Assembly (NCBI GenBank): GCA_945862145.1
Contig: CAMAXE010000002.1
Coordinates: 136,284-200,283 of the forward strand
Direction: 5' to 3'
DNA length: 64,000 nucleotides
Origin: Klebsiella pneumoniae
GTDB taxonomy: Bacteria > Pseudomonadota > Gammaproteobacteria > Pseudomonadales > UBA5518
Part shown: positions 12,919-26,961 of the stretch, one piece after another
Layout of the letters: the number at the start of each line of letters is the position of its first letter
How positions within the stretch are numbered: position 1 is the stretch's first letter
Translations under genes and position numbers: made by a program
Notes under the pieces: generated by a model
The model's database searches: none
Seen by the model: only the letters and a program-made list of their open reading frames with translations
Told to the model about the DNA's origin: nothing

Positions 12919-13094
12919 GGGCGAGTCTCGAGGGTGGATCGTTGGTGCGGGTCGAACCCTAACCGCTTTGATCTGCTCAGTCCACGGCGAGCATAAAATA
13001 GAGCGTAGCGGTCAGCGCTGGGTGATCACTGCAGCGATTGCGCGCACCGGCCATGGCTGGCCTAATCCCGGCGCCACACACGCGGGAGAATTGC

Positions 13095-13862
13095 ATGGGC
13101 AGGGTAGACGGCAAGGTCGTGATCATCACCGGGGCACTGGGCGGTATCGGCCGCGCGGATGCCGCGCTCTTTGCCCGCGAGGGCGCGCGCCTCGTGCTCA
13201 CCGACATCACTGACAAGGGCGCGGATGATCTGCTGGGGTCACTGGGCGCCGAGGCGGTGTTCCTGCGCCAAGACGTGAGCAGCGAGGACGACTGGGCCCG
13301 TGTGGTGGCTACCGCCGAGCAACGCTTCGGGCGGCTCGATGCGCTGGTAAATAACGCCGGGATGATGGTGCTCGGCAACGTGACCGATACTTCATTCGCC
13401 GACTGGCGCCGCGTGATGTCGGTGAATCTGGACGGCGTGTTCCTCGGCTGCCGTGCGGCACTTCCCGCGATTGAGCGCGCAGGGGGCGGATCGATCGTGA
13501 ACATCTCCTCGATCGCGGCCATGCACGGCATGCCGTACGTTGCCGCCTATTGCGCCAGCAAGGGCGGCGTGCGCTCGCTTACCAAGGCGGTGGCGGTGCA
13601 GTGCCGTCAGGCCAAGAACAACGTGCGCTGCAACTCCGTGCATCCCGATGGCGTGAAGACGCCCATGGTGGTCAAGGTTGCCACCGGGCAGGATTCCGCC
13701 ACGCGGGAAGAGATCGAGTCCATCACCGGCTTCAGTGATCGCTTCTGCGAGCCAGAGGACATTGCCGCGGTGGTGCTGTTCCTGGTCTCGGACGAGTCGC
13801 GCTACGTGAACGGCGCGGAGATCCTGGTCGACAACGCGGCTCTCGTGACGGGGCCTGCCTGA
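13095..13862 (+). CDS. SDR family oxidoreductase
   Basis: GKVVIITGALGGIGRADAALFAREGARLVLTDI, LVNNAGMMVLG, YVAAYCASKGG. Start at ATG 13095. Confidence 0.85.
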   Translation: MGRVDGKVVIITGALGGIGRADAALFAREGARLVLTDITDKGADDLLGSLGAEAVFLRQDVSSEDDWARVVATAEQRFGRLDALVNNAGMMVLGNVTDTSFADWRRVMSVNLDGVFLGCRAALPAIERAGGGSIVNISSIAAMHGMPYVAAYCASKGGVRSLTKAVAVQCRQAKNNVRCNSVHPDGVKTPMVVKVATGQDSATREEIESITGFSDRFCEPEDIAAVVLFLVSDESRYVNGAEILVDNAALVTGPA

Positions 13863-13956: not shown

Positions 13957-16900
13957 TCAGGCCCGCGGGAACTGCACCAGCCGGGCCGTGGGTGAACGGC
14001 GCAGGAACAGCCGCTCGATGTCCGCTGCCGGCACGGCCTTGCTGAGCAGGTAGCCCTGCAGGTAATGGCACTGCATGTCTTTCAGGAGCTGGCGTTGCAT
14101 GGTGGTTTCCACGCCCTCGGCGATCACCTCCACTTCCAGCGCCTGCGCCAGCGCGATGATCGTTCGTACGATGTCGGCATCGATACGGTTGCTCATCACC
14201 TCGGAGATGAATGCCCGGTCGATCTTGATGTAGTCGAGCGGGAAGCGCTTCAGGTAGCTCAACGAGGAGTAACCGGTACCGAAATCGTCGATCGCGAGCC
14301 GTGTGCCCATCGCTTTCAGATCGCGCAGCATCCCGATCATCTCGTCGGGCCGCTCCATGATCGCGCTCTCGGTGATTTCGAACTCGATGTACTCGGGCGC
14401 GATGCCGGCATCGGCGATCACCTCGCGGAAGTCCTCGACCAGTCCCGGGTTGGACAGCTGCCGCGCCGAGAGATTGATCGCGACCCGGGGCGTCTCGAAG
14501 CCGCGCGCCGTCCAGTCCGCCACCTGCGTGCAGACCGTGCAGAGCACCCAGCGGCCGATCTCGCTGATCAGCCCGGTGCGCTCGGCGAGTTCGATGAACT
14601 CCGCCGGCGGCACCAGTCCGCGGGTCGGGTGCTGCCAGCGGATCAAGGCCTCGTAGCCCGATACGACGCCGGTGCGCAGGTCCTCCTGCGGCTGGTAGTA
14701 GACCACCAGTTCCTCGCGGTCGATGGCGTTGCGCAACTCGTTCTCCGTCTCGAGTCGCGCGAGGCTCTCGGACTCGAGCCGCGCCTCGTAGAACTCCCAG
14801 GATTTTTTCCCCGTCTTGGCGTGGTACATCGCCATGTCGGCCGAGCGCAGCAGCGTGCCCGCGTCCCTGCCGTGCTCGGGATACACGGCTATGCCCATCG
14901 AACTGCCGAGCAGCATCTCGCGACCGAGGAGTACGAAGGGGCGGTTCACGTGATCGTGGATCTTGTCGGCGATGTTGCGGATCATTTCGTAGGAGCGCAC
15001 GCTGTCCAGCACGATGCAGAACTCGTCGCCCCCGAAACGGCCCACGAAGTCGCCCTTGCGCACGCAGTTGACGAGGCGCTCTGCGACGTACTTCAACAGC
15101 AGGTCGCCGGCCTCGTGGCCCAGCGTGTCGTTCACCAGCTTGAAGTCGTCGAGGTCGAGGAAGAGCAGCGCGAACTGTTTGTCGCTTCGCACGGCCTCGG
15201 CGAGAAGCGTCTCCATGTGCTCATTGAACTTGGTGCGGTTCGGGCGCCCGGTGAGCGAATCGACATAGGCCAGTTGGTGCACCCTGGCCTCGGCGCTGCG
15301 TGCGGCGAGCAGGTGCTCGATGCGGCGTCGCAGCACTGAGTAGTTGATCGGCTTGGCGATGTAGTCGGTGGCGCCGGCGCTGAAGGCCTTGTCGACCGCG
15401 CCGTCGTCGTTCAGGCCGGTGACCAGCAGCAGCGGTATCCCGGCGCAGCCGGGCATGGCGCGAATCAGTGCGCAGGCGGTGAATCCGTCCATCACCGGCA
15501 TCATGCCGTCCATCACCACCAGATCGGGCGCCGTTTGGCGACAGATTTCCACTGCCTGCTGGCCATTGGCGGCCTCGGCTACCTCATAGCCCTCACCCAA
15601 CAGCGTCTCGCGCAGCGCGAAGCGCGATGCGCGGTCATCATCGACCACCAGTATCCGCGACTGTCGCGCGTCTGCTGCCTTCAATTCATCGCCGGGCGCC
15701 GGGCGGGACGTGCTGCTGCCTTCAAGCACGTGCCGCACGAGGTTGGCCTCGTAGACCAGCGACGAAACGAGATTCTCGCAGGCCGAGCGCACGCCGCTGC
15801 GGGCCTCCTGCTCGAGTGCGAGCGCGCGCTGGGCGAGGCGGTTTGCGCCAACATTGCCGGCCGCGCCCTTCAGGGTGTGCGCCACGCGCGTGATCCCGCT
15901 CATGTCGTGGGTTCCGGCGGCGGCGCGGAGTTCGTCGATGTAGCCGGGCAGATCCTCCAGGAACAGTCCCACCATCCGGTCCGCGGCAGGGCCGATCTGC
16001 TGGCGCAGATCGTCGAGGAACGCCTTGTCAACCACGGTGTTCGAGTTGCTGCGCGGGGGCAGCGATACCGTCGGTGCGGGCGCTGCCTCCTCGGGCGTAA
16101 GCCAGCGCCCGAGCGCTTCGCGCAGGACACCGAGCTTGATCGGCTTGGACAGGTAATCGTTCATGCCGGCCGACTGGCACTGTTCCATCGCACTCTTTTG
16201 CACGTTCGCGGTCATGGCCACCACGGGCACGGCCGAGAAGGCCGCGTTCATCTCGCGGATCCGGCGCGTCGCCTCGAAGCCGTCCATGCGCGGCATGTGG
16301 CAGTCCATCAGGATGAGGTCGAAGCGCTGCTCGCGCAGGCGCTCGAGGCACTCCAGCCCATCGGCCGCCAGCACGGCCTCGCAACCGAGGCGCTCCAGCA
16401 TGCCGATAGCCACTTCCTGGTTGGCGCGGTTGTCTTCGACCACAAGCACGCGGTTTCCCGAGAATGTCTCGCGTGAGGACGGAGCCGGAAAGCGGTTTAC
16501 GGCGCGCGCGGCAGGCTGCTCGGCGAGCAGGCTCCGGATGCAGTCATGCAGCATGCCGCGGCGCAGCGGCTTGGCCAGCGCCTGCGCGATGCGGATCCCC
16601 GGTAGCCAGACGCCGTCCGGGCGCGGCCGCACGCCGAGCCGGACCACGTGACGTGCCCCAGCGGCGAGCGCGGCAGCGATCTGCTGGGCCTCGTTGCCGA
16701 TCATGCCCTCGTCGATGATCGCGATGTCGAAGCGCTCCTGGCCGGCTGCATGACCGAGCGCGGCGAGCGTTGACTCGAGCGTGCCGGTGGCGGTGAGGCG
16801 CACGCGCTCGCCGAGCAGCATGCTCGCCACCGAACGGCGTACCAGCGGGTTGTCGTCGCAGAGCAGCACCGAGGCCACCTGCGCCAGCGGCAAGCTCGAG

Positions 16901-18459
16901 CGGTTGCCGAGTGAGTCGCCCTCGGCGCGTATCACGCGCAGTTCGAAGTGAAAGCAGCTGCCTTGGCCGGGCGTGCTGTCGACGCCGATCTCACCACCCA
17001 TCAGCCGCACCAGTTCGCGCGAGATCGAGAGGCCCAGCCCCGTGCCCCCGAAGCGGCGCGTGGTGGAGCTGTCGGCCTGCGAGAAGGGTTCGAAGATGCG
17101 CTTCTGCGCCGCCTGCTCGATGCCGATGCCGGTGTCACTCACCTCGAAACGCAGCCGCAGCCACTTGCCGTCTTCCTCGACCAGGCTGACCGCCAGGCCG
17201 ACACTGCCTTGTTCGGTGAACTTGATCGCATTGCCGAGCAGGTTGCACAGCACCTGTCCCAAGTGGTGCATGTCGCCCTGCACCTGGGCGGGGATGTTCT
17301 CGTCGACCACGCAGGCGAGCTCGATGTCCTTCGCCTGCGCCTGCGGTGTCACCAGTGCCAGCAGGTCCTCCAGCCGCTCGCGCGGATCGAAGGCGGACAC
17401 CTCCAGTTCCTCCTTGTCTTTCTCGACCTTGGAGAAGGTGAGGATGTCGTTGATCAGGCTGAGCAGCATGTCGGCGCTCGAGCGGGCTGTGCGCACGTAC
17501 TCGTGCTGCTTGTTGCCGAGCTCCATCTCGGAGACGAGGTCGAGCATCCCGATGACGCCGTTCAGCGGCGTACGTAGCTCGTGGCTCACGGTGCTGGCGA
17601 ATTCGTCCTTGGCCTTGGCGAGCTCGATTGCGCTGCGCAGCGCCTGGTCGAGCGCCACGCCCTGTTCGAGGGCGCGGTCGCGCGCCTCGGCGATCGCCTC
17701 GCCGCGGCTCTGCAGCACCTCCATCATGGTGTTGAAGGCGCGCTGCATCGCCACGATCTCGCGGGTTCCCGCAAGCGCGGCGCGCTCGTCGGGCGAGCCG
17801 TCCTGGGCCCGCCGCATGATGGCGGCAAGCTGGCGTATCGGCACGGTGAGCCGCGAGGTGATCGCCAGCAGCACCAACAGCATCAGCCCGGAAAGCAGCA
17901 CCGCCACCGTTAGGCTCGAACGCACGATCTCCGAGCGCATGCTGGAGAGCGTCTGGCGTGACATCACCAGTCGCACGCTGCCGAGCAGTTCGCGCGCGCT
18001 GCTGCCACTCGCGTCCGCGAACGGCGAGCCACCCTCGGCCGCACCCGACCAGACCGGCGCCTCGAAGGTCCAGGTATCGGCGTCGGAGCCGGTCAGCGTG
18101 GCGGTGGTGGGCGCGCGGGCGGGGTTTTCCTGGGCGGTTGCGCCTTCGCTCGCGTAGATCCTCTTGCCATCGGTATTCAGCAGTTCGACCGCAATCACGT
18201 CCGGAAAGCCAAGAAATCGCGTGGCGGCCTGGGAGGCGGATTCGGTGTCGCCGTAGAGGAGGGCGAGCGTGGACTGTGCGGCCAGCGAGCCGACCAGCTG
18301 CATGCCCTCGTCCTGCAGGCGACGCTGCACCGTCTCGCCGGACTGCTGCGAAATCACCAGACTGGAGGTGATGGCGAGCAGCAGCACGCAGGCGGTGAAG
18401 CTCAGTCCTATCAGATGCTGCAGGCTGAGCGAGCGAATCGGGCTTGGTTCATGAGGCAT
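13957..18459 (-). CDS. Multidomain hybrid sensor kinase: TM/sensor-HAMP-HisKA-HATPase-REC-REC-Hpt-REC-GGDEF-EAL
   Basis: 1500 aa; H-box VSHELRTPLNGVIGML; G-box GGTGLGLSISRELVRLMGGEIGVDS; RECs LLCDDNPLVRR..IAIIDEGM, LVVEDNRANQEV..LILMDCHMPRMDGFEATRRIRE and LVVDDDRASRFAL..LVVMDGMMPVMDGF; Hpt RVAHTLKGAAGNVGA; RFGGDEFCIVL; SGYEALIRWQHP. Confidence 0.95.
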   Translation of the reverse strand: MPHEPSPIRSLSLQHLIGLSFTACVLLLAITSSLVISQQSGETVQRRLQDEGMQLVGSLAAQSTLALLYGDTESASQAATRFLGFPDVIAVELLNTDGKRIYASEGATAQENPARAPTTATLTGSDADTWTFEAPVWSGAAEGGSPFADASGSSARELLGSVRLVMSRQTLSSMRSEIVRSSLTVAVLLSGLMLLVLLAITSRLTVPIRQLAAIMRRAQDGSPDERAALAGTREIVAMQRAFNTMMEVLQSRGEAIAEARDRALEQGVALDQALRSAIELAKAKDEFASTVSHELRTPLNGVIGMLDLVSEMELGNKQHEYVRTARSSADMLLSLINDILTFSKVEKDKEELEVSAFDPRERLEDLLALVTPQAQAKDIELACVVDENIPAQVQGDMHHLGQVLCNLLGNAIKFTEQGSVGLAVSLVEEDGKWLRLRFEVSDTGIGIEQAAQKRIFEPFSQADSSTTRRFGGTGLGLSISRELVRLMGGEIGVDSTPGQGSCFHFELRVIRAEGDSLGNRSSLPLAQVASVLLCDDNPLVRRSVASMLLGERVRLTATGTLESTLAALGHAAGQERFDIAIIDEGMIGNEAQQIAAALAAGARHVVRLGVRPRPDGVWLPGIRIAQALAKPLRRGMLHDCIRSLLAEQPAARAVNRFPAPSSRETFSGNRVLVVEDNRANQEVAIGMLERLGCEAVLAADGLECLERLREQRFDLILMDCHMPRMDGFEATRRIREMNAAFSAVPVVAMTANVQKSAMEQCQSAGMNDYLSKPIKLGVLREALGRWLTPEEAAPAPTVSLPPRSNSNTVVDKAFLDDLRQQIGPAADRMVGLFLEDLPGYIDELRAAAGTHDMSGITRVAHTLKGAAGNVGANRLAQRALALEQEARSGVRSACENLVSSLVYEANLVRHVLEGSSTSRPAPGDELKAADARQSRILVVDDDRASRFALRETLLGEGYEVAEAANGQQAVEICRQTAPDLVVMDGMMPVMDGFTACALIRAMPGCAGIPLLLVTGLNDDGAVDKAFSAGATDYIAKPINYSVLRRRIEHLLAARSAEARVHQLAYVDSLTGRPNRTKFNEHMETLLAEAVRSDKQFALLFLDLDDFKLVNDTLGHEAGDLLLKYVAERLVNCVRKGDFVGRFGGDEFCIVLDSVRSYEMIRNIADKIHDHVNRPFVLLGREMLLGSSMGIAVYPEHGRDAGTLLRSADMAMYHAKTGKKSWEFYEARLESESLARLETENELRNAIDREELVVYYQPQEDLRTGVVSGYEALIRWQHPTRGLVPPAEFIELAERTGLISEIGRWVLCTVCTQVADWTARGFETPRVAINLSARQLSNPGLVEDFREVIADAGIAPEYIEFEITESAIMERPDEMIGMLRDLKAMGTRLAIDDFGTGYSSLSYLKRFPLDYIKIDRAFISEVMSNRIDADIVRTIIALAQALEVEVIAEGVETTMQRQLLKDMQCHYLQGYLLSKAVPAADIERLFLRRSPTARLVQFPRA

Positions 18460-18489: not shown

Positions 18490-19419
18490 CTAGCGACTGG
18501 GGAAAACCATTTCAAATCGTTGATCCGCCGCGTTCAGGCCAAGGCCCAGGTGGTTCGCGGTGCGGATGTTGATGGCCGTGTGCAAATGCTCGAGCGGCTC
18601 CAGCGTATTGCCGCCCGCAGGCGGGTGTGCGGCGAGGCGTCCCAGCGCCCTGCCCATCGCCGTGTTGTCGGGAAAGAGCGCGAACAACGCGCCCTTCGGA
18701 ACATGCGCGATATTGCTCGAGAAAACTACGATGTTCCGATCCCATGCGGTGCGCAGGATCATCTGCAGCACCGAACTCTCGGCAAGGAAGGGCGAGCCTT
18801 GCGGGAGCCACAGCGCCTCGGTGGCCGGATCCATCTGCGCAAGGCGTTCACGATAGGCATTGGCGCCATCGCGCAGCGTGTCGCGGCGCAGCGCCTCGAG
18901 TGTGATGCCCTGGCTTTTCGCGGCGCTCTGGCCGAGCTCCACCAGCCAGTCGTTGTTGTCCGCGCCGTGCACCAGCGTCACGCGGGTCACCGTGGGCGCC
19001 AGTTCGTGCAGTGTGGCAAACAGGCGCGCCGGGGCGGGGACCATCGAGATGCCGCGCACGCCGTCGGGCAATTCCCCGGGACGCGCGAGCACCGCGCCAA
19101 CCACCCGGTCGAGGGGTGTTTTCAGGTCGCGCATCACATCAAGGCCGTACTTGCCAAGCAGCAGCACGCGCTGTGCGTCGCGTCCGGCGAGGCGTGCGGA
19201 GATGTCGTTCGCGTTCTCGGTGGTCGCCACCTCCTGCACGTCGGCGCGCTCGCCGAGTTCCTCCGTTATGCCTGCAACGATGGCGAGGAACGCCGCCCGG
19301 TAAGGCTCGCGCACGGTGGGGTAGATCACGGCAACCGGCCCGGTCTCGGCGGCCTGCGTGGTTCTGCATGGCAACAGGCTCAGGATGCATGCAAGGGCGA
19401 TCAGGGCCAGCCGCGTCAT
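18490..19419 (-). CDS. ABC_sub_bind-type periplasmic substrate-binding protein (no ABC partner nearby)
   Basis: Signal peptide MTRLALIALACILSLLPCRTTQAAE; VAVIYPTVREPYRAAFLAIVAGI; VTLVHGADNNDWLVELGQSAAKSQGITL; GALFALFPDNTAMGRALGRLA. Start at 19419 overlaps the upstream gene by 4 bp. Confidence 0.75.
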   Translation of the reverse strand: MTRLALIALACILSLLPCRTTQAAETGPVAVIYPTVREPYRAAFLAIVAGITEELGERADVQEVATTENANDISARLAGRDAQRVLLLGKYGLDVMRDLKTPLDRVVGAVLARPGELPDGVRGISMVPAPARLFATLHELAPTVTRVTLVHGADNNDWLVELGQSAAKSQGITLEALRRDTLRDGANAYRERLAQMDPATEALWLPQGSPFLAESSVLQMILRTAWDRNIVVFSSNIAHVPKGALFALFPDNTAMGRALGRLAAHPPAGGNTLEPLEHLHTAINIRTANHLGLGLNAADQRFEMVFPSR

Positions 19420-20240
19420 GGCGGCCACACATCGGGCAACGGGCGTGCCGGCGCTCCGCGGTACTGCACATCGGCGCAGGACAGGGGCAGGAAACCTCCG
19501 GCGGGCGCGGAGGCCGCTTCTGCGTAACAGGCGTGTACACCCGCGTTCACGGCCAGCGCATACAGGCATTCCCCGTCCTCGATCTGCATGTCGCCGTGAT
19601 CGAGCAGGAAGGCGGCCAGATAGCCCAGCATGTTCAGGCCTGCGTCGCCGGCAGGCGCCAGAAGCGCATCGATCTCCAGCGCGAGCCCGAGGTAGGTGCC
19701 ATTCACGAAGCCGAGTTCCGCGGCCAGTCTGGCGAGTGCCGGCACGCGATCATCGCCGTGGGCGATGGGGCGCGTAAAACCAGGTGCGCGCACGCGCCCG
19801 CCGGGGCGTGTCCGGCTCGCGATGAATGCCTCGAGGCTTATGCCACCGAGGCGCGCGGTCTGTGCCGACACCAGGAAATCGTGCGCCGCGCGTGTGCTGC
19901 CGGGGCCGTAGAGCGTGGATTCGCTGGCCATCACGCCAGCGCTGATGCCCACGGTGGGGGTGAGGCGCGCGCTGCCCGCCAGCGCCCCGATCTGGTTGCA
20001 CCAGATACGCGGGTCGGGAAAGGCAAGGCACAGGAAACTCGCCTCTAGCCAGCGTGCGAGGCGTGGATCGGGCAGCTTGCCGGCCACTTCGAGGTACAGC
20101 ACCTCGAAGAAACTACGGCGACCCACCAGGTCCTCGAGCAGTGAGTATCCGTGCACGCTGATGCCGCCGCCGATGCGCCAGCCACCCTTGCGGGTGCGAA
20201 TGCGGTTGCGGCGCTGGTCCCAGAACGTGGTGTCGTTCAT
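19416..20240 (-). CDS. Citrate synthase / citryl-CoA lyase-like protein, divergent paralog 1
   Basis: VHGYSLLEDLVGRRSFFEVLYLEVAGKLPDPRLARWLEASFLCLAFPDP and GFTRPIAHGDDRVPALARLAAELG echo citrate synthase-fold patterns. ATG at 20240 chosen over the extended ORF. Confidence 0.68.
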   Translation of the reverse strand: MNDTTFWDQRRNRIRTRKGGWRIGGGISVHGYSLLEDLVGRRSFFEVLYLEVAGKLPDPRLARWLEASFLCLAFPDPRIWCNQIGALAGSARLTPTVGISAGVMASESTLYGPGSTRAAHDFLVSAQTARLGGISLEAFIASRTRPGGRVRAPGFTRPIAHGDDRVPALARLAAELGFVNGTYLGLALEIDALLAPAGDAGLNMLGYLAAFLLDHGDMQIEDGECLYALAVNAGVHACYAEAASAPAGGFLPLSCADVQYRGAPARPLPDVWPP

Positions 20241-21055
20241 GCGCGGGCACCCGGACCCGCATCGAGGTACTCGTAGCGTTCCTCGGCTACGAAGGGCATG
20301 GCGGTGATGCCGCGTCCGGCCGTCTCGAGCGCGTGCGCGAGCAGCCCCGGCAAGCCCGCCAGTTGGTAGAGAAGGCCCGCTGCGCGCGGCGTGAAGCCCA
20401 ACTCCAGCGCGGTCGCGGCGGCGAGGCCCGGTTGCAGCCAGCCGCAGCCAGTGCCTGCCAGCGCCGCCGCAAAGCGCGCGGACCAGGCGAGTGGGCCTTC
20501 GGGTCTTGCCAGCTCGCACAGCGGGGCAGCAAGGCTCAGGCAAAAACTGTCGATGTTGCCGTGGAGCGTGCCGAAGCCCGGCGCGATGCGACGGTCTCCC
20601 GGTGCCAGCGGAGGCTCCAGTGCCACAAGCTGCGCGGCGAGATCGGCAGGCTCTGCGCTGCGGCGCGCGGCGATGAATGCGGCGGCATTTTCCACCTCGG
20701 TGCTTCCCAGGTGTTCGCCGCCCAGCAGGGCAAGGCCGATCGCCGGCAGTGCCGCATTGCGTGTTCCTGATGCCGCGGCGTGCATGATGCCCCGCGAAGC
20801 CGCGTGCCGCGGGCCCGGATTGCAGAAGCTCACCAGGAATCGTGACATCAGCCGGCGTTGCGCGGCGTTCGGCAGTTCGCCGCGAAGCAGCAGAAAGATG
20901 GTGTCGTCAAAAGACAGCCGGCGCGCCATCTCATCGAGCGCGTAGCCGTGACAGCGCACCCCCGTGGCAAGCCAGGCGTTGTCGGGGTCGGGTAGCTCCT
21001 CCCACACGCGCGTGCGCACGTGATCGGGAAAAGCGGTGTCGCGGCTTTGCTCCAT
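20237..21055 (-). CDS. Citrate synthase / citryl-CoA lyase-like protein, divergent paralog 2
   Basis: CHGYALDEMARRLSFDDTIFLLLRGELPNAAQRRLMSRFLVSFCNPGP; PGFGTLHGNIDSF; LELGFTPRAAGLLYQLAGLPGLLAHALE. Confidence 0.75.
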   Translation of the reverse strand: MEQSRDTAFPDHVRTRVWEELPDPDNAWLATGVRCHGYALDEMARRLSFDDTIFLLLRGELPNAAQRRLMSRFLVSFCNPGPRHAASRGIMHAAASGTRNAALPAIGLALLGGEHLGSTEVENAAAFIAARRSAEPADLAAQLVALEPPLAPGDRRIAPGFGTLHGNIDSFCLSLAAPLCELARPEGPLAWSARFAAALAGTGCGWLQPGLAAATALELGFTPRAAGLLYQLAGLPGLLAHALETAGRGITAMPFVAEERYEYLDAGPGARA

Positions 21056-21069
21056 CGCCCGTCAGCCGC

Positions 21070-23244
21070 TCAGAACCGCAGTCGCGCCGTGACGTGGACA
21101 CTGCGCTCTTCCAGCGGGAAGTCATCGGGCATCAGCGAGCCCGCAGGCACCGCCTCGGTGGGGCTCGGTTCCCGCGCGTTCTCGTCGAAGAGATTCTTCA
21201 CGCGCAAGGCGAGGTCGAGATGTCCGGCGATGCGACTGCGCTCGATGTTGAGGTTCACCAGCGTGTAGTCATCGAGCGGGTCGCGGGGATCGAGCGGCTC
21301 GCGGTTGCGGTCGGCAACCCAGCGCAACTCGCCCGTGGCCGACCAGTCCTCCGCCAGACGCCAGTGCGCCCGCAGATAGGCGGTGCGCTCCGGGGCCCGG
21401 GCGCCGTCCTCGCCCATGCTTTTGTCTTCGGCACTCTGCGCAGCCACGTTGGCCACCACGCGTAGCGATGCCAGCGGCTTCCACTCGGCTTCGAGCTCGA
21501 GGCCGCGCCCTTTCTGCCTGCCCACGTTCTGCGCCACCTGCGCGCCGGAGCCCATTGCGACGAAGTCGATCAGGTCATCGATGTCGTACTGGAATAGGTT
21601 CAGGCCGAGGCGCCACTCGAAGCCCGGTCGCCAGTCGAGTGCGAGCTCATAGGTGTTGACGGTCTCCGGATCAAGGTCCGGATTTCCGAGCGCTACGGGG
21701 TTATTGACGATGAATAACTCCGCGAAGGAGGGGGCGCGGAAGGCGCGACCGTAGAGCAGCTTGGCGGTGAGATCGGTGTTGACGTCCCAGACCAACGCGA
21801 GCCTGGGGTTTACCGTGCTGCCGAAATCCGAGTAATCGTCGAAGCGCACACCGGTGGTCAGGTTCCAGTCGTTGGCGATCTGCCACTGGTCCTGCAGGGA
21901 GGCGTAGGCCACGTCGCGATCCTGGCCCTCGATGAAGGCGTTGGCTGTCCCGCTGACATTGGTGAGCGTGCCGTCCACCGTGCAGATGCCCGGGCCGCAG
22001 TTGCGGCTCGCGAGATCAAGCGCGCCGGGGCCGAAGTTCTTGGTCTCCTTGCCGGATTCTTTCTGCGAGCTGAGGCCCGTGGCGAAGCGCAGGCTGTGCT
22101 TTTCGAGCCCGTCCCACGTGAGTACGGCCTCGGCGCGGGCGTGCTCCTCGTAGAACTCGGGATTGCCACGGTAGCCATCGGTGAAACGGAACAGACGGAA
22201 CGGGGCGGTGATCCTGATGTTGCCGTCATCGCCGATCGGCAGCACGGTGCCTGCAGGGAATAGCGTCTGGCGGGTCTTGATGTTGATATCCATGTACGAG
22301 GCGCGCAGTTCGAGCGTCGTGTCGGGCGCGAGTGATTTCGTGCTCCAGCCGATATCGAAGAGATAGTTGTCGCCTTCTGCGCTGCCCGAAGGATCCAGCG
22401 CCAGCGCGAGTCCGGGTCCGACGCCAACGTCGTCCTGACGCCAGTTCCAGGCGCGCAACTGGAAGTCGTGGTACTTGAGGTCCAGTCGTACGTCCATCGA
22501 TTCGGGGTTGCGTGTGGCGAGTGCGCCGGGCGCGAGCGAGGCGGGCTGAATGCCAAGAGGCGCCAGCACCGCGTCGAAGACCGATTGCGCATCGCTGCTG
22601 ACGCGTCGTGAGTTGTCGCCATCGGTGCTCGACGCCTGGGCGGAGAAGCTCACATCCACCTCGCCCCAGCGCGTGCCGTGCAGGAGCCAGCCTTCAGTGG
22701 TATCGAAGGAGCCGCCGCGCACGCCCGCTTCGGTGCCGCCAATCTGTGCCGCGCTTTTGGTGATCACGTTGATCACGCCCGCGAGCGCGTCGGCGCCGTA
22801 GATTGCCGAGCCCGGGCCGCGGATCACCTCCACGCGTGCGATGTCGCGCACGGGGAATGAGCGTCCGCCGCGATCGCCAAAATGCAGCTGGGTGATCGGC
22901 ACGCCGTTCACCAGCATCAGGACCTGGGGGTTTTTGTCGGTGTAAATGCCGCGTACCGAGACCACGGGCGAGAGATAGGTGCTGGAGAGCGAGACATGCA
23001 CCCCGGGTACGGTTTCGAGGATCTCCTCCAGCGTGGTAGCACCCAGCGCGGCGATGTCCTCGGCGGTTATGACAGAGGCCACGGCAGGTGCCTTGGCGAT
23101 CAGCTGTTTTTGTCCCGTTGCGATACTGAGGAACTCTTCATCTCCGAAGGACGCTGCAAGGTCCTCCTCGGACGACGCCGCGAGACAGTGCGAAGAGGCG
23201 GCCACGGCAGCCGCCAACAGTGCAGGGATGAAGCGCTTGTTCAT
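21070..23244 (-). CDS. TonB-dependent receptor
   Basis: Signal peptide; plug VASVITAEDIAALGATTLEEILETVPGVHVSLSSTYLSPVVSVRGI, RVEVIRGPGSAIYGADALAGVINVITK; C-terminal LRVKNLFDENAREP...VTARLRF. Confidence 0.94.
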   Translation of the reverse strand: MNKRFIPALLAAAVAASSHCLAASSEEDLAASFGDEEFLSIATGQKQLIAKAPAVASVITAEDIAALGATTLEEILETVPGVHVSLSSTYLSPVVSVRGIYTDKNPQVLMLVNGVPITQLHFGDRGGRSFPVRDIARVEVIRGPGSAIYGADALAGVINVITKSAAQIGGTEAGVRGGSFDTTEGWLLHGTRWGEVDVSFSAQASSTDGDNSRRVSSDAQSVFDAVLAPLGIQPASLAPGALATRNPESMDVRLDLKYHDFQLRAWNWRQDDVGVGPGLALALDPSGSAEGDNYLFDIGWSTKSLAPDTTLELRASYMDINIKTRQTLFPAGTVLPIGDDGNIRITAPFRLFRFTDGYRGNPEFYEEHARAEAVLTWDGLEKHSLRFATGLSSQKESGKETKNFGPGALDLASRNCGPGICTVDGTLTNVSGTANAFIEGQDRDVAYASLQDQWQIANDWNLTTGVRFDDYSDFGSTVNPRLALVWDVNTDLTAKLLYGRAFRAPSFAELFIVNNPVALGNPDLDPETVNTYELALDWRPGFEWRLGLNLFQYDIDDLIDFVAMGSGAQVAQNVGRQKGRGLELEAEWKPLASLRVVANVAAQSAEDKSMGEDGARAPERTAYLRAHWRLAEDWSATGELRWVADRNREPLDPRDPLDDYTLVNLNIERSRIAGHLDLALRVKNLFDENAREPSPTEAVPAGSLMPDDFPLEERSVHVTARLRF

Positions 23245-23251
23245 GCGGTAC

Positions 23252-25099
23252 TCACATGGCCTGCAGTGCCTGGATCCGCCGCCCGATCGGAGGTACCTCG
23301 CTGGCATCGATGCGGATATCCAGAAGGGTGGGGCTCTTCTGCATGCAGATTGCGGGGATGTTGAGGTTCAGGAGGTCCTGTGGGGTCTGGATAAGGTAGC
23401 CGCGGATCCCCATGGCCTCGGCCATGCGGCGGAAATCGACCTGCGGCAGCTCCGCGCCGATCCGCTCCCCGCCGCCCAGGATCTGGCCGTGCGCCACCAT
23501 GCCGAGCCTGGCGTCGTTCAGCACGATGAACACCACCGGCAGGCCGAGCTGTTGGGCAACGGTGATTTCCTGGCCGCTCATCAACATGCTGCCGTCGCCG
23601 GTGATGCACACCACCGGGTCGCCCGGACGCGCGAGCGCCGTGCCCACGGCATTGCCTATCGCCCAGCCCATGGGGGCGAACTCGAAGCCTGCCTGGAAGA
23701 GCCCGCCGCAGTTACTGCGCCGGTCGCGCTCGCCGCGCTCGCCGCGTTCGCGGTGGCGGCGATCGAGCAGGCGGCGGTCGAAGGGGTGCAGGTAGTGCGT
23801 GCTCCACGCAAAGCTGTTGCCGGCATCGGCGAGGTAGCGGGTGCTGGGCGGGAACAGCTGCGTCAGCTTGGTCATGAGCCACTGCGGCTTGACGGGGCTG
23901 GAGGCATCGAGGCATTTGGCGAAGTCCGTCACCTCGAAGGGCAGCAGTGATTGCCCGCTGCTCACGTGCTCATCCGTGTCCTGGCGCTCGATGCTGCCAA
24001 GGTGGCGCCCGGCCTTGCCGAGTTCGACGATCACGCTCTCGAAGATGGTGTCGATCGCCCCGCGCACGTGCAGGCGCGCCATCGGCGAGCGGGTGAGGTT
24101 GCCTTCGTTGGAGTCCACGTGAACCAGCTGGCTGTTCAGCAGGCCATCGCTGTCCCAGTTGTTGCTGCTCCACTCGCTCAACAGGTTGCCGATGGTGATC
24201 ATCAGATCGACCTCGGGGTCCCGCAGGGTGCGCTCGGCGCTGACATGGCCAGCAAAGGAGACCACACCGTCGTAGGTGGGGTGGAAGGGGCTGATCAGTC
24301 CCTTGCCGTCAGGCGTGGTGACCACGCGGGCGCCGACCATCATGGCGGCACGCAGTATGAGCCCTGCCGCATCCTGGCAGCCGCCGCCCAGCACGAACAC
24401 CGGTTTCTTCGCCGCGAGCAGCAGCTCGACCATGGTGGCCAGCGCGCTTTCGTCCTTCCACGCCGGGCGCGCGAGCAGCGAGATGAGGTTGTAGGCGGGG
24501 CCCGCGCTGGACACCACCGAACGCATCACATCTAGCGGTACGCTGACATGCGCCGGGCCGCTCGCGTTGAAGGCCGTCATGATGGCCGAGGTCAGCTTGT
24601 GCTCAAGCTGATCGATATGGCTCACCAGGGTGTTGTAGTGGGTGCAGTGCTGGAACATGCCCACGGTGTTCACCGCGGTGTCGCTGGATTCCTGGAAGGC
24701 CTTGCGACCGAAGTGGCTGAGCGAAGTCTGTGGGGTGATGACCAGCATGGGGATCTGGTTCTCGTAGGCTGAGGCCACGCCGGTGATCAGATTGGTGGCT
24801 CCGGGGCCGGTGGTGCTGCAGCAGACCCCAAGGCGGCCGGTGTTGCGGGCATAGCCCTCGGCCATGAAGGCGGCACCCGTTTCGTGGCGGGCCACCACGG
24901 CCCGCACCGAGCCGCGGCGCTGGCTGCGGGCAAGCGCGTTGTACAGCGGCTCTATGGCCCCACCCGGGATACCAAAGACGTACTCCACCCCGAGCTGTTC
25001 CAGGTAGCCGAGAATCAGGTCCCCGCCCTCGTAAATCCGGGGCGAGCCTGAAGGCTCCGCGCTGACAGCGGGGTAAAGCGTGCGGACTTGAGCAACCAC
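23252..25099 (-). CDS. Thiamine-diphosphate-dependent enzyme, acetolactate synthase large-subunit-like
   Basis: LGVEYVFGIPGGAIEPLYNAL, RHETGAAFMAEGYAR, STTGPGATNLITGVASAYENQIPMLVIT, ITGDGSMLMSGQEITVAQQLGLPVVFIVLNDARLGMV. GTG start with upstream AAGGAG. Confidence 0.9.
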   Translation of the reverse strand: MVAQVRTLYPAVSAEPSGSPRIYEGGDLILGYLEQLGVEYVFGIPGGAIEPLYNALARSQRRGSVRAVVARHETGAAFMAEGYARNTGRLGVCCSTTGPGATNLITGVASAYENQIPMLVITPQTSLSHFGRKAFQESSDTAVNTVGMFQHCTHYNTLVSHIDQLEHKLTSAIMTAFNASGPAHVSVPLDVMRSVVSSAGPAYNLISLLARPAWKDESALATMVELLLAAKKPVFVLGGGCQDAAGLILRAAMMVGARVVTTPDGKGLISPFHPTYDGVVSFAGHVSAERTLRDPEVDLMITIGNLLSEWSSNNWDSDGLLNSQLVHVDSNEGNLTRSPMARLHVRGAIDTIFESVIVELGKAGRHLGSIERQDTDEHVSSGQSLLPFEVTDFAKCLDASSPVKPQWLMTKLTQLFPPSTRYLADAGNSFAWSTHYLHPFDRRLLDRRHRERGERGERDRRSNCGGLFQAGFEFAPMGWAIGNAVGTALARPGDPVVCITGDGSMLMSGQEITVAQQLGLPVVFIVLNDARLGMVAHGQILGGGERIGAELPQVDFRRMAEAMGIRGYLIQTPQDLLNLNIPAICMQKSPTLLDIRIDASEVPPIGRRIQALQAM

Positions 25100-25290
25100 G
25101 GAGGGCTCCTTCCATTACAGATAGCTTCAGTATAGAAGGCTAAACCATTGTTGCTTGTGAATTTTCCCGCTTTGAAGGTGGCTTCGAAAAGATGGTCTAC
25201 GAGCCCGCGCTCCAGAGGGGGAGGGGTGTGCCCGGCTCGCGCCCGCTGGCATCATGGACGCCGCCCCGATCCAGCCCCCGGAGAGCCGTC

Positions 25291-25989
25291 ATGGAAAAAC
25301 TGATCTACCCCCTCTGGAGCCACCCCGGCGAGAGCCCCTCGGCGCTTCGCGAGCGCCTGCTCGAGGTGTCCACGGAACTGCTGCGGGCCGGCGCGCATCA
25401 GGTGCGGCTCAGCGTGGTTGACGAGGACGTGGCGGCCGCAGCACCGCTCAGGCAGGCCAACACGAATCCCACCTGCGACGCCCTGTTGAGTCTCTGGGTG
25501 GACACGGCGGTGTGGCATCAGCGCTACGAGGCGCTTATCGCACCCCATGTCTCCCGCTATAACGGCTACCTAGTGTGTGAATCCGAGCCCATCCGTCATG
25601 CCGAGCGCGCCCCGGGCGACGGCAGCCGGGTGGAGGGGATGTGCCAGGTGGTATTCCTCCAGCGCCCGCCGCGTCTGCCCGCCGAGGAATGGATCCGGAT
25701 CTGGCAGGGGAGCCACACGCAGGTGGCGATAGACACCCAGGCGACCTTTGGTTATCGGCAGAATGTGGTCATCCGGGCCGTGACCTACGCCGCGCCGCGC
25801 TACGACGCGATCATCGAGGAGAACTTCCCCGCGGCGGCCATGAGCAGCCAGAATGCCTTCTACGACGCCGTGGGAGATGATGCCAAGCGCGAGGCCAACC
25901 TCAAGGCCATGATCGAGAGCTGCGTGCGCTTCATCGATTTCGACTGCATCGACGTGATCCCCACCAGCGAGTACAACCTGCACCGCTGA
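25291..25989 (+). CDS. EthD-domain protein
   Basis: MCQVVFLQRPPRLPAEEWIRIWQGSHTQVAIDTQATFGYRQNVV and PAAAMSSQNAFYDAVGDDAKREANLKAMIESCVRFID fit EthD-type proteins. Confidence 0.65.
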   Translation: MEKLIYPLWSHPGESPSALRERLLEVSTELLRAGAHQVRLSVVDEDVAAAAPLRQANTNPTCDALLSLWVDTAVWHQRYEALIAPHVSRYNGYLVCESEPIRHAERAPGDGSRVEGMCQVVFLQRPPRLPAEEWIRIWQGSHTQVAIDTQATFGYRQNVVIRAVTYAAPRYDAIIEENFPAAAMSSQNAFYDAVGDDAKREANLKAMIESCVRFIDFDCIDVIPTSEYNLHR

Positions 25990-26031
25990 GAGCTGCCGCC
26001 CCTCACCGCTGTTCCACTAAAGGACCCACTC

Positions 26032-26961
26032 ATGCCGCTGCACCCGCAGGTGATCCCGATTCTTGACGCATTGAACGCCAATATGGCGGCCATCCCCCAC
26101 GTGCCGGTGGAGCAGATCGGCCTGCTCCGGCAGGGGCCGATGGCGCCGCCGCCGGAGCAGCCGACACCAGTGGCTCGGGTGGAAGACCGCGCTATTCCCG
26201 GGCCGGCCGGCGATCTCACGGTGCGGATCTATTGGCCGGAGGCCTCGGGGCCCCGCCCGCTGGTGGTGTTCTTTCACGGTGGCGGCTTCGTGCTCTGCAG
26301 CCTGGATACGCACGATGAACTCGCCCGCGGATTCTGCCGTGAAGCTGAAGCGGTTGTGGTGTCGGTGGACTACCGGCTGGCACCCGAGAACCCGTACCCG
26401 GCAGCGGCCGACGACTGCTACGCGGCGCTCGTCTGGGCCGTGGCCAACGCCGAAAGCCTGGGAGCGGATCCGGCCAGAGTGGCGGTGGCCGGTGACAGCG
26501 CCGGCGGCAATCTGGCAGCGGTTACGGCGCTGCGGGCCCGGGATCTGGGTGGTCCGGCGCTGCGGCATCAATGTCTTATTTATCCGGTCACGGATTCCCG
26601 TTGCGACACGCCGTCATTCGCGGAAAACGCTGACGGCTACTTCCTCTCGGCCGAGGCCATGCGCTGGTTCTGGTCACACTATCTGCAGGATGCGGCCCGG
26701 GGTGATGAGCCCTACGCCTCGCCGCTGCGGGCGCCGGATCTTTCGGGTTTGCCGCCGACGCTCGTGATCACGGCCGAGTACGACCCGCTGCGCGACGAGG
26801 GTGAGCGCTACGCCGCAGCGCTTGCCGCTGCTGGTGTCGTCACCGAGCTGCGCCGCTATGACGGGATGATCCACGGCTTTGTCACGCTCGCCGTGCCTCT
26901 AGAAGATGGCGGCCACGCGCTCCGGTTGGCTTCGCGGCATCTGCGCGAGGCGCTTGCCTGA
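26032..26961 (+). CDS. Alpha/beta hydrolase, HSL family esterase
   Basis: FFHGGGFVLCSLDTHDE, VSVDYRLAPENPYPAAADDCYAAL, VAVAGDSAGGNLAAV, YDGMIHGF. Confidence 0.93.
   Translation: MPLHPQVIPILDALNANMAAIPHVPVEQIGLLRQGPMAPPPEQPTPVARVEDRAIPGPAGDLTVRIYWPEASGPRPLVVFFHGGGFVLCSLDTHDELARGFCREAEAVVVSVDYRLAPENPYPAAADDCYAALVWAVANAESLGADPARVAVAGDSAGGNLAAVTALRARDLGGPALRHQCLIYPVTDSRCDTPSFAENADGYFLSAEAMRWFWSHYLQDAARGDEPYASPLRAPDLSGLPPTLVITAEYDPLRDEGERYAAALAAAGVVTELRRYDGMIHGFVTLAVPLEDGGHALRLASRHLREALA

Follow-up and report, generated by a model that had tools for sequence, protein, structure and literature searches.

The window, a 64,000-nucleotide stretch of DNA, harbors two adjacent genes, UP and DN, whose products represent a new family on the known fold of citrate synthase and lie in an undescribed cassette. 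The gene set points to a hitherto undescribed system for producing (or degrading) a small molecule and for sensing it. The explanation we prefer, to which we would assign a probability of about one half, is that UP and DN form an obligate heteromer and work with a thiamine diphosphate (ThDP)-dependent enzyme as one unit that makes a small molecule, with the products of neighbouring genes capturing and sensing it.

Organization of the UP/DN Pair

UP (P0002), a citrate-synthase-fold protein of 272 aa without the canonical catalytic residues and with a conserved NPGPR motif, is encoded at 20237..21055 on the minus strand and is translated first. It is followed on the same strand by DN (P0001), a second citrate-synthase-fold protein of 274 aa at 19416..20240, and the two frames share an overlap of 4 bp, ATGA, at 20237-20240. 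A previous sequence-only reading had described the pair with these coordinates, lengths and overlap, all of which are exact, and the motifs that it quoted were found in their places, with DN carrying GFTRPIAHGDDR and LNMLGY and UP carrying GFGTLHGNIDSF and GWLQPG. The two proteins are paralogs (BLASTP 2e-8; profile-profile probability 99.2%). A scan for promoters and terminators revealed nothing above chance, and the GC content is uniform around the cassette, which gives no sign of a recent foreign origin.

Fold and Family Assignment

Both proteins match PF00285 weakly (6e-4 and 5.5e-5) and below the gathering score, and both match the PRK06224 citryl-CoA lyase models (6e-14 and 1e-17) far below the cut-offs, UP scoring at most 64 bits against a cut-off of 212 and DN at most 52 bits against 193. 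The best PDB chain for each was the citryl-CoA lyase 6HXP from Hydrogenobacter thermophilus, a member of the PRK06224 group. The AlphaFold2 models, which were built on 73-75 relatives, were confident (pLDDT 92.5 and 94.0), and their top Foldseek match was again 6HXP (E 9.8e-11 and 8.3e-11, TM 0.73-0.82), the first matches of both being citryl-CoA lyase and the citryl-CoA-lyase module of ATP-citrate lyase. The citrate-synthase-type fold claimed from the sequence was thus recovered for both proteins, rather than an unrelated one. Since the genome of the window has its own normal gltA and its own acetolactate synthase, UP, DN and the ThDP enzyme are not housekeeping copies, and that reading was rejected.

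Loss of the Active-Site Residues

The active-site residues were compared in an alignment of 73 DN and 75 UP sequences with E. coli GltA, 6HXP and 19 outgroup proteins, using GltA numbering. His is present at H305 in all 19 outgroups, whereas DN carries Arg in 73/73 sequences, with one residue deleted directly after it, and His occurs in 0/75 UP sequences. Asp at D362 is absent from every sequence of either family (0/73 DN, 0/75 UP). The H264 position is Tyr in all 73 DN proteins and mostly Leu or Gly in UP, with His in 1/75 in this loosely aligned column; in several UP proteins, including that of the window, a His lies at the preceding residue (GGEHLG). H229 is replaced by Pro in 73/73 DN and 68/75 UP, and a new Arg three residues past this position is invariant in DN (73/73) and UP (75/75) and missing from the outgroups. 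R387, which is Arg in 19/19 outgroups, is kept in no DN and in 10/75 UP proteins, and R314 persists in every DN protein (73/73) and in few UP proteins (4/75). The residues P75, R78, W80, N82, Y111, R157, P158, D163, R165 and N203 are invariant in DN. The catalytic triad is therefore not intact in either protein, and the loss of catalytic residues first noticed in the window extends over 73-75 homologues of each. Of the features that define citryl-CoA lyase and citrate synthase, UP and DN share the fold and lack the others that were tested.

The "citryl-CoA lyase" subfamily PRK06224.1-5, represented by loci L136-L141, served as a control. Like UP and DN, it has a short citrate-synthase fold without the equivalents of D362 and H264, yet it keeps H305, R314 and R387 and forms a clade separate from UP and DN, so what sets UP and DN apart is the loss of the whole set and not that of the Asp by itself. 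The L136-L141 proteins pass the NCBIfam PRK06224.1-5 cut-off without the catalytic Asp and the His at the H264 position, which makes their own annotation as citryl-CoA lyase doubtful.

In the FastTree tree UP forms one clade and DN another, and the two are sister clades, a topology to be read with caution given the long branches; the two families therefore probably originated from a duplication that followed the onset of the rewiring. UP and DN resemble 6HXP, the best structural match of both, in their short length (~270 aa) and their fold, and differ from it in lacking the catalytic His and Asp and H229 and mostly R387, in carrying a new conserved P-x-x-R, and in being two diverged, always-paired genes scoring far below the family cut-offs. 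That the two might be conventional citryl-CoA lyases or citrate synthases whose catalytic residues have moved is very improbable: the shared fold and the weak PRK06224 matches would fit such enzymes, but no His at H305 or Asp at D362 occurs in 148 sequences, H305 and R387 are kept in all the outgroups, every score falls far short of the curated cut-offs, and a normal gltA is present in the genome. Identity as an ordinary citryl-CoA lyase was accordingly rejected.

Distribution and Strictness of the Pairing

A scan with a DN profile yielded 315 related loci, the best 80 of which were fetched for locus analysis. The named loci are mostly from Gammaproteobacteria, and others come from Desulfuromonadales, Magnetococcales and Gallionellaceae, among others. 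In 77 of these 80 loci the gene immediately upstream of DN is UP, and the contigs of the remaining 3 begin at DN; the frames overlap in 66 of these 77 loci and are no more than 30 nt apart in 73. Among 369 evenly sampled genomes from the class of the window (Gammaproteobacteria), DN was detected in 42, UP in 43 and both in 41, with a single genome (G233) having DN and no detected UP. The pair is therefore present in about 11% of the sampled gammaproteobacterial genomes, besides other groups, with cultured hosts including Cellvibrio, Rheinheimera and Neptuniibacter, and its distribution is patchy even within the genus of the window (3/6 genomes). Plasmids were also searched and yielded no homologue. 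The pair recurs in hundreds of genomes and is not a chance arrangement.

An obligate heteromer had been proposed from the window alone. The genomic side of that proposal stands strongly (UP ahead of DN in 77/80 loci; both genes in 41 genomes and DN by itself in 1; joint retention of the genes when far apart), and its physical side stays a proposal. The composite active sites or the acyl-CoA-binding role suggested along with it are likewise conjectural. That reading did not take in the main context of the pair, namely the co-occurring ThDP enzyme and the surrounding TonB, binding-protein and c-di-GMP sensing genes. In one genome (G089:C1:3416811-3417526) DN is split into two matches with an internal TGA, next to an intact UP, representing either a pseudogene or a sequencing error.

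Other arrangements of related proteins were also encountered. Two loci (L195:8407-10412 and L196:8201-10299) encode a weakly UP-like citrate-synthase-fold protein with a 4-bp overlap with the next gene, whose product appears by eye to be a class III (CaiB-type) CoA transferase, and these apparently represent a different short "citryl-CoA lyase" arrangement. Loci L150-L154, L156 and L157, from other Pseudomonadota, contain two nearby citrate-synthase-type ORFs of about 366-387 and 320-360 aa.

The Cassette around the Pair

Six genes of the window form one run from 25099 to 13957, all on the minus strand. The run begins with an acetolactate-synthase-like ThDP-dependent enzyme of 615 aa (23252..25099), followed by a TonB-dependent receptor (21070..23307, given as the longest ORF, the true start probably lying slightly inside), UP and DN. 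A periplasmic substrate-binding protein of ABC_sub_bind-like type (18490..19419) follows, whose likely start, ATG at 19419-19417, shares 4 bp with the DN stop in a second ATGA. The last gene (13957..18459) encodes a hybrid sensor kinase of HAMP-HisKA-HATPase-REC-Hpt-GGDEF-EAL architecture, in which kinase and GGDEF-EAL modules are joined in a single protein of 1500 aa with a c-di-GMP output. An EthD-domain protein and a LipP1-type esterase, encoded upstream of the run on the opposite strand (25192-26961), are not recurrent neighbours.

Clustering of the neighbours at the 80 loci recovered a TonB receptor at 70, the ThDP enzyme at 66, a histidine kinase or GGDEF-EAL protein at 66 and a PF04392-type binding protein at 42, counts that are limited by contig ends. 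The recurrent neighbour families are few, their order and strand vary, and the identical neighbour set accompanies a further DN/UP subfamily of greater divergence. Rows of 240-270 aa assigned to DN beyond the pair were short-chain dehydrogenases drawn in by one DN-short-chain dehydrogenase fusion, and were excluded from the counts. This fusion is found in a Cellvibrio MAG (L065:10022-11584), and in other loci, the window (13038-13862) among them, separate short-chain dehydrogenases are encoded near the pair.

The recurrent neighbour families of the 80 loci include no conserved exporter or inner-membrane transporter. A siderophore-type synthesis and uptake cluster would combine synthesis genes, an exporter and a TonB receptor; here a TonB receptor and candidate synthesis genes were observed, and the recurrent families contained no exporter. 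Nor is a permease, a CoA ligase or a further catabolic enzyme conserved at these loci, which argues against a plain catabolic operon. We consider it unlikely that the genes form a catabolic unit in which a molecule imported by the TonB receptor is detected by the binding protein and kinase and is cleaved by the ThDP enzyme and UP-DN through retro-carboligation and retro-Claisen reactions. A TonB receptor and a binding protein do adjoin the pair in most loci, and the nearest structures to UP and DN are those of a lyase; against this, an inner-membrane permease and the other expected catabolic genes are not conserved, the lyase residues are gone, and the enzyme genes are located apart from the TonB and sensor genes in several genomes.

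In gene content alone, the cassette has the feature expected of a system that synthesizes and senses a molecule, namely a binding protein and a histidine kinase adjoining the synthase genes. LuxPQ-type signalling consists of a periplasmic binding protein and a hybrid kinase, and the cassette resembles it in encoding a binding protein beside a membrane histidine kinase, together with c-di-GMP proteins; it differs in its unrelated binding-protein family (PF04392), its TonB receptor and its different synthase genes.

The ThDP-Dependent Enzyme and Its Link to the Pair

The ThDP enzyme shares the full ThDP-binding domains, the catalytic Glu and the GDG motif with acetolactate synthase and the ScyA-related and BbmA-CsmA enzymes, and represents a distinct subfamily that co-occurs with UP and DN and falls below every NCBIfam cut-off (281 bits against 538 for TIGR00118). 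Its catalytic Glu73 and GDG...ND motif are conserved across the subfamily, with E73, G501-D502-G503 and N528-D529 maintained in at least 97% of 67 sequences. Of the 369 genomes, 43 contain the subfamily (profile A5) and 37 of these also have DN (Fisher 4e-39, relatedness ignored); the shared genomes span 24 families. Five DN genomes have no ThDP match over the threshold, 2 of which have the enzyme by local search.

The co-occurrence persists when the genes are unlinked. The ThDP, UP and DN genes are located on three contigs amid unrelated genes in one genome (G251), DN lies about 0.5 Mb from ThDP and UP in another (G191), and the ThDP gene is apart from UP/DN in G126, G255, G360 and G399. In a single case (L122:6776-9436, genome G092) ThDP and UP are fused in an open frame of 886 aa, which is followed by DN. 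Tree-distance correlations were 0.18 for ThDP-UP and 0.33 for ThDP-DN, against 0.73 for UP-DN; the mirror-tree test therefore does not support co-divergence of the ThDP enzyme with the pair, and ThDP genes have accordingly been swapped between cassettes.

Variant Cassettes and the Possible Role of the Pair

Two genomes hold the set of ThDP enzyme, TonB receptor, binding protein and kinase without UP and DN. A SAM methyltransferase takes the place of the pair in one (G187; L166:8506-9303) and a KAS III-like synthase in the other (G088; L169:4691-5683), and a search among the relatives of both genomes added no further replacement cassettes. The ThDP-UP fusion was seen once, as was each replacement cassette, in MAG-quality or single genomes. 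That enzymes occupy the position of the pair in these two genomes is a hint of an enzymatic role for UP and DN.

These arrangements bear on the idea, which we regard as rather improbable, that UP-DN is a non-catalytic regulatory or scaffold subunit that tunes the ThDP enzyme and binds acyl-CoA or a dicarboxylate. Regulatory subunits of this kind exist for acetohydroxyacid synthase, namely IlvN/IlvH, and the loss of catalytic residues from both proteins, the ThDP-UP fusion and the co-retention of the pair with an unlinked ThDP gene would all be in keeping with such a role. However, the invariant polar residues of DN (Y111, R157, D163, R165 and N203) exceed what a scaffold would be expected to retain, and the replacement of the pair by enzymes in two genomes suggests a catalytic step.

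In the model that we favour, UP and DN would be the halves of an obligate heteromer built on the fold with which citryl-CoA lyase and citrate synthase dimerize, and would have given up the His/Asp Claisen chemistry of these enzymes. Judging from the alignment, an altered Arg-rich pocket (R78, R157 and R165 of DN; R83 of UP) might receive an anionic or acyl-CoA ligand. The heteromer and its dedicated ThDP carboligase would form a three-protein unit, acting in the same pathway and possibly in the same complex, and the unit would make a small molecule rather than break one down. Biosynthesis is also favoured over regulation because the methyltransferase and the KAS III-like synthase replace UP/DN in the two variant genomes. 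The TonB receptor, the binding protein and the kinase/GGDEF-EAL protein may then capture and sense the molecule, with c-di-GMP as the output, and since no exporter is conserved the product would have to be membrane-permeant or leave by a general exporter.

Relation to Known Systems and Meaning

Among known systems, the CitA/CitB/CitC proteins of Caulobacter are comparable in that citrate synthase acts there in regulation independently of its enzyme activity (PMC7083601). These are Krebs-cycle citrate synthase paralogs, and the abstract of that article does not mention a ThDP/TonB cassette. A phrase-matched search of the open-access literature recovered no description of the present gene combination, an absence that is weak evidence.

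On the evidence presented here, the pair that is automatically annotated as "citryl-CoA lyase" is not that enzyme and is instead a rewired pair of citrate-synthase-fold proteins. More tentatively, such cassettes might be widespread, undescribed synthesis-and-sensing systems, in which the ThDP enzyme and the rewired heteromer make a diffusible molecule that the TonB receptor captures and that the binding protein and kinase sense and turn into a c-di-GMP response, the exchangeable methyltransferase and KAS III-like enzymes giving chemical variants. If the proposed role is true, the family would show an old fold put to a new chemical use, possibly within a new kind of bacterial signalling or uptake cassette linked to c-di-GMP.
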